DNA of 59,266 bases from Dialister micraerophilus DSM 19965 (GTDB lineage Bacteria; Bacillota; Negativicutes; Veillonellales; Dialisteraceae), in assembly GCF_000194985.1 (NCBI RefSeq), contig NZ_GL878519.1, positions 945,471 to 1,004,736 of the forward strand, read 5' to 3'. The notes under the pieces were generated by a model, which worked only from the letters and a program-made list of their open reading frames with translations, was not told where the DNA came from and did no database searches. The translations under genes and the position numbers were made by a program. Positions 22,595-28,052 of the stretch are shown here, one piece after another; position 1 is the first letter of the stretch; every line of letters starts with the position of its first letter.

Positions 22595-23893
22595 ATGGAA
22601 AAAGAAAATAAAAACATCTCGATTGAAAAACAAGCGGAAGAACTGATACTCAAAAGTCGACACAATCACCAAAGCAAGCAAGTCATTTTGTGGATTGCCG
22701 CGTTGATTGTCGGAGGAATTCTGGGTGGACTTGGAAATACGATGCTCAACCAGATGTTTGCATTTGTTGCCACCGTATTTACACGACTGTTTCAATTCAT
22801 AGCAATACCGACCATTTCACTCACCGTAATAACAACACTTGCATCAATAGGAGTAAAAAAAGACACCGGACGCATATTTGTACACGCACTTACATACACA
22901 CTGCTTACAACAATATGTGCCGCTGCCATAGGACTTGCTCTATACATAGTTGTTGACCCCGGAAACTTACCGGTATCGCTTGTGAATGCAGGTGTCGAAC
23001 AAGTACCTGAAAAACTGACACATATAAGCTATTATGATCACTTCCTTTCAGTAATACCGAATAATATATTGCAACCGTACTTGGAAGGAAATGCTCTCTC
23101 TGTGATGATTATATCCGCTGCAGTAGGGCTGTCACTTGCATTTATGCCCAAAACTGAAAATCACGCAGTCTTGCTCAAAGGAATAAACGGATTGCAAGAA
23201 ATACTGTTTGTATTGATAAAAGCGATAATTTGGGCATTGCCTCTCGGAATTTTGGCATTCTCTGCACAACTTTCCGCACAAATTGCAACCGGAATTATTG
23301 TAGGAGCATTGGGAAAATACACACTCGTTATAATTGTCGGAAACTTAATACAATTTTTTATAGTACTTCCCTTATATCTCCTTGCAAGAGGACTCAATCC
23401 CGTAAAAGTATTTAAGAAAATGCTTCCGGCGATAACACTTGCGTTCTTCTCGAAAAGCTCTGCCGGAACACTTCCGGTCACGCTGGCATCGGCAGAAGAA
23501 AATTTGAAAGTAAATCCGAAAATATCACGTTTCGTACTTCCGATATGTACAACCATAAATATGAACGGATGTGCGGCATTCATCTTGGTTACATCACTTT
23601 TCCTCATGCAAAACGGAGGATTCGAACTGACACTTCCGATGATGATAGTATGGCTCTTCGTATCCGTAATATCAGCGGTAGGAAATGCAGGAGTACCGAT
23701 GGGATGCTATTTTCTTACACTTTCACTCATGTCATCGGTAGGAGCACCCATAGGAATTATGGGAATAATACTTCCTATATACACAATCATAGACATGGTG
23801 GAAACTGCGGAAAATGTATGGTCGGATGCGGTAGTATGTGCAATGACCGATCATGACTTGAAGGGTACCTTGTCAGATAGTAAGAATGCTTAA
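22595..23893 (+). CDS. dicarboxylate/amino acid:cation symporter (DAACS family)
   Basis: Sodium- or proton-coupled uptake carrier of the glutamate/aspartate/serine/C4-dicarboxylate family in the cytoplasmic membrane. The 432 residues show a 45-residue hydrophilic N-terminus, about eight membrane helices, the serine-rich re-entrant loop (FFSKSSAGTLPVTLASAEEN) and the NMNGCAAFILVTSLF segment in the cation-binding region; the usual NMDGT is NMNGC here. A C-terminal GNAGVPMGCY re-entrant loop and a DMVETAENVWSDA motif follow. Substrate not determinable. It sits between clpX and lon, where such a gene is not expected. Confidence 0.87.
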   Translation: MEKENKNISIEKQAEELILKSRHNHQSKQVILWIAALIVGGILGGLGNTMLNQMFAFVATVFTRLFQFIAIPTISLTVITTLASIGVKKDTGRIFVHALTYTLLTTICAAAIGLALYIVVDPGNLPVSLVNAGVEQVPEKLTHISYYDHFLSVIPNNILQPYLEGNALSVMIISAAVGLSLAFMPKTENHAVLLKGINGLQEILFVLIKAIIWALPLGILAFSAQLSAQIATGIIVGALGKYTLVIIVGNLIQFFIVLPLYLLARGLNPVKVFKKMLPAITLAFFSKSSAGTLPVTLASAEENLKVNPKISRFVLPICTTINMNGCAAFILVTSLFLMQNGGFELTLPMMIVWLFVSVISAVGNAGVPMGCYFLTLSLMSSVGAPIGIMGIILPIYTIIDMVETAENVWSDAVVCAMTDHDLKGTLSDSKNA

Positions 23894-23930
23894 TAAATTG
23901 AATATTGAAAATATTTGCGATATAAAAGAA

Positions 23931-23966
23931 AAACGAAATCGTTTAAAATGACGATTTCGTTTTTTT
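23931..23966 (+). terminator. intrinsic terminator after the DAACS gene
   Basis: Perfect 12-pair stem (23931-23942 with 23951-23962), eight-base loop and a T run. Confidence 0.92.
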
Positions 23967-23989
23967 ATGTAAAAGAGGCTAAAATATAT

Positions 23990-24022
23990 TTGTAAAAATC
24001 GGGGGGGGGGGTGTGATAGAAT
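23990..24022 (+). promoter_or_regulatory. promoter-like region with an 11-G homopolymer in the spacer
   Basis: TTGTAA (23990-23995) and an extended -10-like TGATAGAAT (TAGAAT at 24017-24022) flank eleven consecutive G (24001-24011). The present spacer is 21 bases; losing about four G would give the optimum of 17. Homopolymeric tracts placed like this switch promoter strength by slipped-strand mispairing in other diderm bacteria. The link to this gene is inference, but the tract is read directly from the sequence. Confidence 0.55.
24001..24011. repeat. poly-G tract, 11 bases
   Basis: Eleven G in a row in a strongly AT-rich intergenic stretch; the only homopolymer of G or C of this length noticed in the window. 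It lies 61 bases upstream of the autotransporter-type gene and 35 bases after the preceding terminator. It is outside any reading frame that continues into the gene, because a TGA stop lies directly before the first ATG. Confidence 0.95.
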
Positions 24023-24071
24023 TAAATTCTCGATGAAAATATGTATTAAATAAATGAACGGATGAATGATT

Positions 24072-25421
24072 ATGAAAAACATTTCAAAGAATATAATCGG
24101 AATATGTATATTTACTTTGCTTATGTGCATGAAAAATCCCATATATGCTGAACCTCAGGATGAATTTCGTTTTGTCCGAAATGACGGAAAAGTAATTTAT
24201 TTCTCAAATGAGGAAACTAAAGTTTGGGAAGGTGAATTTGAAGGGAAACCTAGTTGGATAAGATATCAAGTTGTAAAACATGGAGCCACATACGAAGTTA
24301 ATATGCGAACCAATATCGCAAATAATAATTCGATTTTCAAGAAGAATATCTCTTTTCCACGAAGGTTGACGACTTGGATCGGTTCTATCAGATATAAAAT
24401 AGAAAAAGATGGACAGACACATTATTTTTTGAAGGATGGTAGAATGGTTTTATACCATAATGCCGTTGCCATTGAACCGGCTGAAATGGATAATCAAGTA
24501 AATATCATGAAATCGAGCATATTAAGTGCAGATGACAGGCGTAATCGGTGGGAGCTGGGCGACCGTTACCAAGTGTGGACTAATTATCAGTCCAACCGTT
24601 TGTCTTCCCGCATATTGAAAGGCAATAAAAATTTCAAAAAAGAATCTCATGTAAATATGCTTCATATAGGTATCGATCGGGTGAATCCCGATACACTGAC
24701 GGGTATATATTTGATTAAAGGAACGGAAAAAGCCAAATATTTCAGAAGAACCGTATTTGATGCTTATAACAAATTTAATTCTTCTGAGAAAGGGCACTAT
24801 GTATCAGATGGTGATTATAAGGTGTCCGGTTGGGGAGTTCATCATACTCGCTACTTGAAAAACGGAGTATATGCAGACATTGCTTTTCAACGTTTAGAAT
24901 CTAAGGGAAATATGGAAACCGTTGATAACGGAATGTTTGCCAATGAGAAGGCAAGTCGCAGTATAAACGGAACGGGAATATCTTTTGAAGTAGGGAAGGA
25001 AATTCCATGGAAAAATGATTGGCATATAGAACCGCAACTTCAATATACGATGTTCAAAATGCATGGAGACAGTTATAAGGACAGCTTAGATGATGTGTAT
25101 CCGGATTTAAATCCGTTACCGAAACTCGATTTCACTCTTCATGAGCTTAGAGCGGGTATCAAGGCGACACATAAAAATGTATATGCGAAAGCGAATGTAT
25201 ATTTAAACAATTATGATAACTCATACGCAAGGAAAGTAATGGAAAGATACACTTCTAGAAAAATGAAAAAAGAACGAGGAATAGACGTTGTCGGAGAGAT
25301 TGAATTGGGATTGGAAAAAGAAATAAAGAAAGATGTGACGATTCATTCGGCAGTTACATATCGAACCGGAAAAAATGAAAATAATATGAAAGTAAAACTT
25401 GGCGTAAGTGCCAAATTTTAG
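24072..25421 (+). CDS. autotransporter-type outer membrane beta-barrel protein with short passenger
   Basis: Predicted outer membrane protein, 449 residues. A signal peptide (MKNISKNIIGICIFTLLM, cleavage near IYA-EPQ) is followed by about 125 residues of exported N-terminal domain without a recognised fold. About 290 residues from near residue 158 have the alternating aromatic/polar pattern and conserved landmarks of autotransporter barrels (WGVHHTRYLKNGVYADIAFQ; WHIEPQLQYTMFKMHG), ending in a C-terminal Phe as outer membrane barrels do. Start chosen at 24072; an ATG at 24066 is also possible but closer to the weak GGATGA site. It has its own terminator and a poly-G-containing upstream region. 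Function unknown; adhesion or surface variation is inference. Confidence 0.8.
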   Translation: MKNISKNIIGICIFTLLMCMKNPIYAEPQDEFRFVRNDGKVIYFSNEETKVWEGEFEGKPSWIRYQVVKHGATYEVNMRTNIANNNSIFKKNISFPRRLTTWIGSIRYKIEKDGQTHYFLKDGRMVLYHNAVAIEPAEMDNQVNIMKSSILSADDRRNRWELGDRYQVWTNYQSNRLSSRILKGNKNFKKESHVNMLHIGIDRVNPDTLTGIYLIKGTEKAKYFRRTVFDAYNKFNSSEKGHYVSDGDYKVSGWGVHHTRYLKNGVYADIAFQRLESKGNMETVDNGMFANEKASRSINGTGISFEVGKEIPWKNDWHIEPQLQYTMFKMHGDSYKDSLDDVYPDLNPLPKLDFTLHELRAGIKATHKNVYAKANVYLNNYDNSYARKVMERYTSRKMKKERGIDVVGEIELGLEKEIKKDVTIHSAVTYRTGKNENNMKVKLGVSAKF

Positions 25422-25718: not shown

Positions 25719-28052
25719 ATGGACGAAATTATAGAAAATACAAGTTATGTGACACTGCCGATGGTGGCGTTGCGTGACATGATTGTATATCCCGGTATAG
25801 TAACAAACCTAGATATAGGACGAATAGATTCGATAGCATCAGTGCGCCAAGCATCAAAAGGAAACAGAATGTTTGTAGGCGTAATGCAAAAAGACGGAAA
25901 AATAGAAGCACCCGAAGAAGGAGATTTGTACAGATACGGTACACTCATAAAAATAAGACAAATGCTTCAACTTCCCGGAGGACTTATCCGTATTTTAGTG
26001 GAAGGTGTCTCTCGAGTGACGGTAAAAAGCATAAAAAGAACACAAGACTATGTAACCGCCGAATTTGAAAAAGTGAAAGAGATATATCCCGAAGACAATA
26101 TAAGAGCCGAAGCATACAGAAGAGTATTGCTTACATCGTTCTTTGAATGGATGCAACAAGGTAAAATCTCACTTTCCGAAGAACAAACCGCACAACTGCG
26201 TTCAATGTCCGAAGTGGGTAGTACCGTAGATTTTATAGCACAACAACTCATTATTCCGATGAACAGAAAGCAAGATTTGCTTGAAACTTTGGATGTAATG
26301 GAAAGATTGAAAGCTGTACAAAAATACATTGACGATGAAATACAAATCGGAAGAATGGAAGCCGAAATAAACGGAGAAGTACGTACACGTATGGAAAAAG
26401 AACAGCGTGACTATTTCTTGCGTCAAAAAATAAAGAGCATTCACGACAAATTGGGAGATCGTATTTCACAAGAACAAGAAGCCGAAGAATACAGAAAGAA
26501 ACTTGCAAAAAGCGGTATACCCGAAGAGTCGAAGGCAAAAATCGAAAAAGAAATATCTCATCTTGAAACGATGCCTCCGATGATGGCGGAAACTGCAATT
26601 GTAAGAAACTATCTTGAATGGATAATGGGACTTCCTTGGAAAAAAGAAAGCAAGGACAAACTCGATCTTCATCATGCGAAAAAAATGCTCGACAAAGAGC
26701 ATTTCGGACTTGAAAAAATAAAAGAACATATACTCGAATACTTGGCGGTAAGAATTTTGGCACCGAATGCAAAAGCACCTATTATTTGTTTTGTAGGACC
26801 GCCCGGAGTAGGTAAAACGAGCCTTGCACAATCAATTGCAGATGCAATGGGACGTAAGTTTGCACGTATTTCATTGGGCGGACTTCATGACGAAGCCGAA
26901 ATACGAGGACACAGACGTACATACATAGGCGCAATGCCGGGAAGATTTATTGAAGCTATAAATCAAGCTAAAACGAAAAATCCTTTGATACTTTTGGATG
27001 AAATAGATAAAGTGGGATCCGACTTCAGAGGGGATCCGGCATCGGCACTTTTGGAAGCGCTCGATCCTGAACAAAACAAAGCATTCCACGATAACTATAT
27101 AGATATACCTTTCGACTTTTCAAAAGTATTCTTCATAGCTACTGCAAATACATTGTCTACGATACCGGCGGCATTACTCGACAGAATGGAAGTAATAAGT
27201 CTTTCCGGATATACCGAAGACGAAAAACTTGAAATAGCGAAAAGATACCTTGTACCGCGTCAAAAAGAAATGAGCGGGCTTAAAAATGAAGATGTGAGAT
27301 TTACACCCGCACTCATAAGAAAAATAATCAGAAGTTACACAAGAGAAGCGGGAGTACGTGAACTCGAACGTACAATAGGTACGCTTTGTCGTAAAGTTGC
27401 AAAGAAAATAGTATTGAAAGATGAAGAACTTCCGAATCTTACATCGAAAACGATTATAAAATACCTCGGAGCCGAAAAATTCATGCCTATGTCGGAAGAA
27501 CACGAATCCATAGTAGGAAGAGTAAACGGACTTGCATGGACAGCGGTAGGCGGAGAGGTATTGGACACCGAAGCCGTGACAATAAAAGGAAAAGGCAGAT
27601 TGATACTCACTGGACAACTCGGTGACGTTATGAAAGAATCTGCGGAAACGGCATACACATATATAAGAAGCAGAGCTAAAAAACTCGGACTCAAAGAAAA
27701 CTTCTATGAAAGTTTGGACACGCACATACACCTTCCGGAAGGTGCGGTACCGAAAGACGGTCCGTCTGCCGGAATAACTATGGCAACTGCAATGGCATCC
27801 ATATATACGGGAAGAAAAGTCAGAGGCGATACAGCAATGACAGGTGAAATCACACTCACCGGAGAAGTGCTTCCAATCGGCGGACTTAAAGAAAAATTGC
27901 TCGCTGCAAAACAATTCGGAATAAAACAAGTTCTCATACCGATAAAAAATAAACGTGACTTGGTAGATATGCCTAAAAATATACAAGAAGGTATAGATAT
28001 AATATTTGTTAAGAATGTAGAAGAAGTTTTAGCACACGCATTAATGAAATAA
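25719..28052 (+). CDS. lon: ATP-dependent protease Lon (LonA type)
   Basis: Cytoplasmic AAA+ serine protease degrading damaged and regulatory proteins. The 777 residues contain the N-terminal substrate-binding domain, the AAA+ module with Walker A GPPGVGKTS (about residues 360-368) and Walker B PLILLDEIDK, and the C-terminal peptidase domain with the catalytic Ser in PKDGPSAG (about residue 683) and a Lys about 43 residues later. Preceded by GGAGG. Its usual neighbours clpX (upstream) and engB (downstream, 10 bases) are present, but two unrelated genes separate it from clpX. Confidence 0.97.
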   Translation: MDEIIENTSYVTLPMVALRDMIVYPGIVTNLDIGRIDSIASVRQASKGNRMFVGVMQKDGKIEAPEEGDLYRYGTLIKIRQMLQLPGGLIRILVEGVSRVTVKSIKRTQDYVTAEFEKVKEIYPEDNIRAEAYRRVLLTSFFEWMQQGKISLSEEQTAQLRSMSEVGSTVDFIAQQLIIPMNRKQDLLETLDVMERLKAVQKYIDDEIQIGRMEAEINGEVRTRMEKEQRDYFLRQKIKSIHDKLGDRISQEQEAEEYRKKLAKSGIPEESKAKIEKEISHLETMPPMMAETAIVRNYLEWIMGLPWKKESKDKLDLHHAKKMLDKEHFGLEKIKEHILEYLAVRILAPNAKAPIICFVGPPGVGKTSLAQSIADAMGRKFARISLGGLHDEAEIRGHRRTYIGAMPGRFIEAINQAKTKNPLILLDEIDKVGSDFRGDPASALLEALDPEQNKAFHDNYIDIPFDFSKVFFIATANTLSTIPAALLDRMEVISLSGYTEDEKLEIAKRYLVPRQKEMSGLKNEDVRFTPALIRKIIRSYTREAGVRELERTIGTLCRKVAKKIVLKDEELPNLTSKTIIKYLGAEKFMPMSEEHESIVGRVNGLAWTAVGGEVLDTEAVTIKGKGRLILTGQLGDVMKESAETAYTYIRSRAKKLGLKENFYESLDTHIHLPEGAVPKDGPSAGITMATAMASIYTGRKVRGDTAMTGEITLTGEVLPIGGLKEKLLAAKQFGIKQVLIPIKNKRDLVDMPKNIQEGIDIIFVKNVEEVLAHALMK

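Follow-up and report, generated by a model that had tools for sequence, protein, structure and literature searches.

Does a long run of G residues in front of a surface-protein gene act as a random switch of its transcription? The question is raised by a locus of Dialister micraerophilus DSM 19965, within the 59,266-nucleotide stretch of DNA analysed here (the window), where eleven consecutive G lie inside the predicted promoter spacer of an autotransporter gene. The features concerned, in window coordinates, are as follows.

22595-23893, forward strand: sodium:dicarboxylate symporter gene, the upstream neighbour (PF00375, E 6e-87).
23929-23967, no strand assigned: terminator-like hairpin with a T run, between the symporter gene and the promoter (14 pairs, 0.2 expected in shuffles).
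23990-23995, forward strand: -35-like hexamer TTGTAA, 4/6 to TTGACA (from sequence).
24001-24011, forward strand: poly-G tract of 11 G (from sequence and run statistics).
24014-24022, forward strand: extended -10-like TGATAGAAT, with hexamer TAGAAT at 24017-24022, 5/6 to TATAAT, preceded by TGA (from sequence).
24066-25421, forward strand: predicted classical (type Va) autotransporter of 451 aa with a C-terminal F (from Pfam, structure model and sequence).
25719-28052, forward strand: Lon protease gene, the downstream neighbour (identified by eye).

Most of the geometry described in the original prediction was confirmed on inspection. The eleven G stand between TTGTAA and the extended -10, both hexamers being predicted from sequence; the spacer (23996-24016) measures 21 nt, which the loss of four G would bring to 17; and the tract falls outside the reading frame, which opens only at 24066. 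The distance from tract to gene, given as 61 bases, was counted as 60 nt from the end of the tract to ATG 24072, the second of two candidate starts (the other being ATG 24066), which is more signal-peptide-like and is likely to be the true start. This promoter is absent from the promoter scan of the window because its spacer of 21 exceeds the 16-18 allowed. As sequenced, with a -35 of 4/6 and a spacer of 21, an active promoter is not evident, and with 11 G the promoter would probably be weak, unless the extended -10 suffices. A crude hexamer score across tract lengths was set aside as a mere restatement of spacer arithmetic.

The hairpin (23929-23964, with the T run after it) was placed on the minus strand by the scan, although a T run closes the plus strand as well; it ends the preceding symporter gene, and the autotransporter gene would therefore need a promoter of its own. 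On sequence grounds the latter gene looks monocistronic, because the Lon gene does not begin until about 300 bp past its stop codon.

Domain searches and structure prediction agree with the earlier description of the gene as autotransporter-type, and its product is modelled as a classical (type Va) autotransporter with a short passenger. PF03797 matches this protein and all five of its homologues described below (6/6 proteins). The predicted model (pLDDT 73, pTM 0.68) has 12 strands across residues 167-450 and two linker helices at 137-150, and its best structural matches are autotransporter translocators: NalP (Z 28.7, rmsd 2.3 over 261 residues), with further matches to AIDA-I (Z 28.3) and EspP (Z 28.3). 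By eye, the N-terminus carries a signal peptide, MKNISKNIIGICIFTLLMCMKNPIYA, and a beta-rich part of about 100 residues, with the terminal F at the other end. The features of the type Va class are thus present together (12-strand barrel, linker helix, signal peptide, passenger and C-terminal aromatic residue), and the predicted barrel supplies a surface-exposed product downstream of the tract.

The claim that such a tract is improbable by chance in AT-rich intergenic DNA also holds, in genome-wide run statistics based on pattern searches and on the composition of the window. No other G/C run in the genome (1.28 Mb) is as long as these eleven G, and the number of runs of at least 11 expected there under a first-order model is 0.05, a departure from chance of about 20-fold; the surrounding intergenic stretch has 27% G+C with the tract included. 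Within the window there are eight G/C runs of length 5, none of 6-10 and then the single run of 11. The same model predicts about 1.2 G9 tracts per genome, so a G9 tract alone is weak evidence, and in other relatives (L045-L052) many G9 tracts occur at unremarkable sites.

Runs of at least nine G/C number three in the whole D. micraerophilus genome, and all three sit in what, judged from sequence, would be contingency-locus positions. One of the other two (contig C1, 687093-687101, minus strand; L001 1501-1509) is a G9 that lies within the gene for a type III restriction-modification methyltransferase (mod). The PF12564 and PF01555 halves of this gene occupy different frames, and these overlap at the G9, where the frame is broken; a second frame break occurs further downstream, near L001 1145-1158. 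A homopolymer inside a type III mod gene is the usual site of a phasevarion switch, and this gene is a candidate for phase variation. The remaining G9 (contig C1, 1089608-1089616; L005 and L134, 3001-3009) is followed directly by ATAAT and lies 90 bp before ATGAATAAAATCCATAAAATTATTTGG, an ESPR-like start (MNKIHKIIW) that meets a stop after 14 codons and is apparently the remnant of a decayed trimeric autotransporter gene. The genes after this start encode a MerR-type regulator and a heavy-metal-domain reductase-like protein. At two loci elsewhere among the sequences compared (L041 4001-4010, and L190), tracts of G8-G10 mark the point at which the frame of a glycosyltransferase gene seems to be broken in two, a pattern that is classic for phase-variable genes of sugar transferases; the flank around a G9 at L050 resembles them.

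Full-length homologues of the autotransporter were found in Veillonellaceae bacterium DNF00626 (one), in Megasphaera hutchinsoni (two, in tandem) and in a presumed Veillonella genome (two, in tandem), with one genome compared per species. DNF00626 belongs to the same GTDB genus as the window, and its homologue (contig KQ960853.1; 34% protein identity) has a promoter of closely similar design, TTGTTA and TATAAT enclosing a 19-nt spacer, attttatGGGGGGGGGtag, in which G9 stands between attttat and tag, about 70 nt before the ATG. Synteny between the two loci was considered and rejected, the neighbours in DNF00626 being an EamA-type transporter and a peroxiredoxin, not symporter and Lon. Every DNF00626 tract of at least nine G (3/3) lies upstream of a surface-protein gene. 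Three ESPR/YadA trimeric autotransporter genes in that genome (L042, L043 and L206) have G8-G11 upstream, and in L206 a G8 lies in the 18-nt spacer between TTGACA and TATTAT.

A G9 precedes the second Veillonella copy, about 19 nt 5' of a TATAAT and upstream of the -35/-10 pair rather than clearly inside it; the first copy has no upstream tract, and neither of the tandem M. hutchinsoni homologues has one in front. The next outer-membrane gene beside the latter encodes an SLH-domain porin, and before it a G9 (L101 6992-7000) lies directly 5' of TATATT in a TAGAAA-17 nt-TATATT arrangement. No second copy of the gene was found with the protein in viral and genome contigs, nor of the tract in viral contigs.

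A stricter pattern, TTGACA-N0..14-G7-N0..8-TATAAT, has 54 matches across 380 Negativicutes genomes and a single one when mirrored. Forty-nine of the 54 come from one genus other than the window's own, g65 (66 genomes), leaving five in the other 314 genomes of the class; elsewhere in the phylum there are six in 289 (mirrored 0). An enrichment of poly-G spacers across the class is therefore too broad a description, since the motif is concentrated in g65 and is otherwise at a low phylum background. In these 54 promoters a longer flank on one side of the tract goes with a shorter one on the other (r = -0.76 between 5' and 3' flanks; variance of the sum 5.3 vs 18.7 shuffled), with a permutation p of about 5e-5 that overstates independence because many of these promoters are mutually related, and the spacer is held near 17-19, with modes at 17 and 19. 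Among g65 loci (L112-L131, L135-L160 and L192-L199) there are dozens of TTGACA-polyG-TATAAT promoters, in which spacers of 17 and of 19-20 nt are the most frequent and those of 18 nt are scarce.

In one g65 genome, G184, the genes behind the strict promoters encode long proteins built of repeats, which in one case are of RTX type. Related promoters there carry 7, 7, 8, 9, 9, 9, 10 and 12 G, and closely related paralogous ones differ in G number with hexamers unchanged. Two of them share 97% identity over 196 nt yet have G10 and G12, which shows that in g65 promoters of this design tract length changes faster than its flanks.

What these comparisons favour for D. micraerophilus is slippage-driven phase variation of the autotransporter through its promoter spacer, which we regard as the best explanation and a likely one, because in g65 the spacer shows the constraint on length expected of a promoter spacer. 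Replication slippage would add or remove G in a slippage-prone tract within the spacer of a sigma-70-type promoter, the presumed sole driver of the gene; the distance between -35 and -10 would change, and autotransporter transcription would be switched or graded between cells, in the manner of porA. Such a mechanism would have TTGTAA and TAGAAT as working hexamers, a tract of varying length, a weak or OFF state at 11 G (spacer 21) and expression that tracks tract length; the extended -10 may permit some transcription despite the overlong spacer. A random on/off or dimmer switch is probable because the arrangement recurs before surface-protein genes of relatives. Of the phase variation originally predicted, then, the tract, the geometry, the gene type and the recurrence at a homologue and at other surface genes stand as observations, and the interpretation draws its support from comparison.

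It is possible, though unlikely, that the tract varies but acts through a regulator-binding site or through local DNA structure, with G-rich, A-form-like or quadruplex-prone DNA close to an extended -10 that barely needs a -35. The full TGn extended -10 and the weak -35 at this locus would suit such a mode of action, as would the position of the G9 at the Veillonella homologue; against it, what is constrained in the g65 set is the total spacer and not the place of the tract within it, which fits an effect of distance rather than a fixed site.

We give less credence still to the idea that the tract serves the promoter as an invariant structural element, or is a neutral leftover, without a useful rate of variation. 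Many g65 tracts are indeed of similar length (8-10 G), but the paralogous promoters of G184 differ in G number while keeping their hexamers, an unselected run of eleven G should decay in AT-rich DNA, and homopolymers of such length are unstable. Least probable of all, and very improbable in our view, is an artefact of sequencing or assembly: any assembly may miscount a homopolymer, and the true length here could differ from 11 by one or two, but the flanks are unique within a 1.27 Mb contig and independent assemblies of other species place a tract in the same position before homologous genes.

Spacer homopolymers had been put forward as an established switch for surface proteins, and the literature agrees: in Neisseria meningitidis porA, a poly-G lies between -35 and -10 and the transcript level tracks the number of G (PMC3899988). 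The D. micraerophilus locus shares with porA a poly-G in the -35/-10 spacer, here between predicted hexamers, of a surface-protein gene; it differs in that the gene encodes an autotransporter rather than a porin, that the host is a diderm member of the Bacillota, that the locus is known from sequence alone and that its spacer of 21 is longer than the usual working one. For the surface appendages of Haemophilus influenzae, the number of TA repeats at hifA/hifB sets the distance between -35 and -10 (PMC3899988). That system resembles ours in having a repeat that sets this distance and a surface product, but its repeat is a dinucleotide and its promoter bidirectional. In Moraxella catarrhalis the autotransporter adhesin gene uspA1 is preceded by a poly-G, which is situated 5' of the core promoter and not inside the spacer. 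NalP and MspA of N. meningitidis are phase-variable autotransporters under homopolymer control (PMC3723659), as proposed here, although their tracts are in coding sequence and act by frameshift.

The porA-like mechanism is thus already known from Neisseria, and in this group it has apparently not been described: the open-access literature on Dialister, Veillonella, Negativicutes and Selenomonas yielded no matching report of phase variation, and two papers on Veillonella autotransporters (PMC7549365, PMC5491611) make no mention of poly-G promoter control. Within the Bacillota, the Negativicutes possess an outer membrane, and their autotransporters drive biofilm formation and aggregation (PMC7549365). 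If the proposed switch is real, adhesion traits would differ between clones of one strain, annotation of expressed adhesins from single genomes would mislead, and a separate diderm lineage would offer an independent parallel to a mechanism studied mostly in Proteobacteria. We give an even chance to the wider view that poly-G spacers are a general contingency architecture of the diderm Bacillota (Negativicutes), providing random control of adhesins and surface proteins across the lineage, elaborated in one genus into dozens of consensus TTGACA-polyG-TATAAT promoters and coupled in this species to a phase-variable type III DNA methyltransferase.

With relaxed hexamers, the -35/polyG/-10 pattern gives 35 matches against 20 mirrored in 61 genomes of the order (Veillonellales), a modest excess, and 7 against 0 in six genomes of the window's own genus. 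Where a match is intergenic and its spacer sensible, the gene that follows mostly encodes an ESPR/YadA trimeric or other autotransporter (L161, L162, L164, L165, L171, L174, L178, L181, L182 and L189; L161 and L171 were judged by eye in the absence of a Pfam match, and L178 by eye from an ESPR-like start). The exceptions (L175, L177, L179, L187 and L184) precede a small membrane-protein gene or no clear gene. In three species of the family f4 (L201, L202 and L200), promoters have the form TTGAC-G8/9-ACA..TG-TATAAT, in which the run of G touches the -35 hexamer or extends into it; one of these stands before a gene for a DUF4352 protein.
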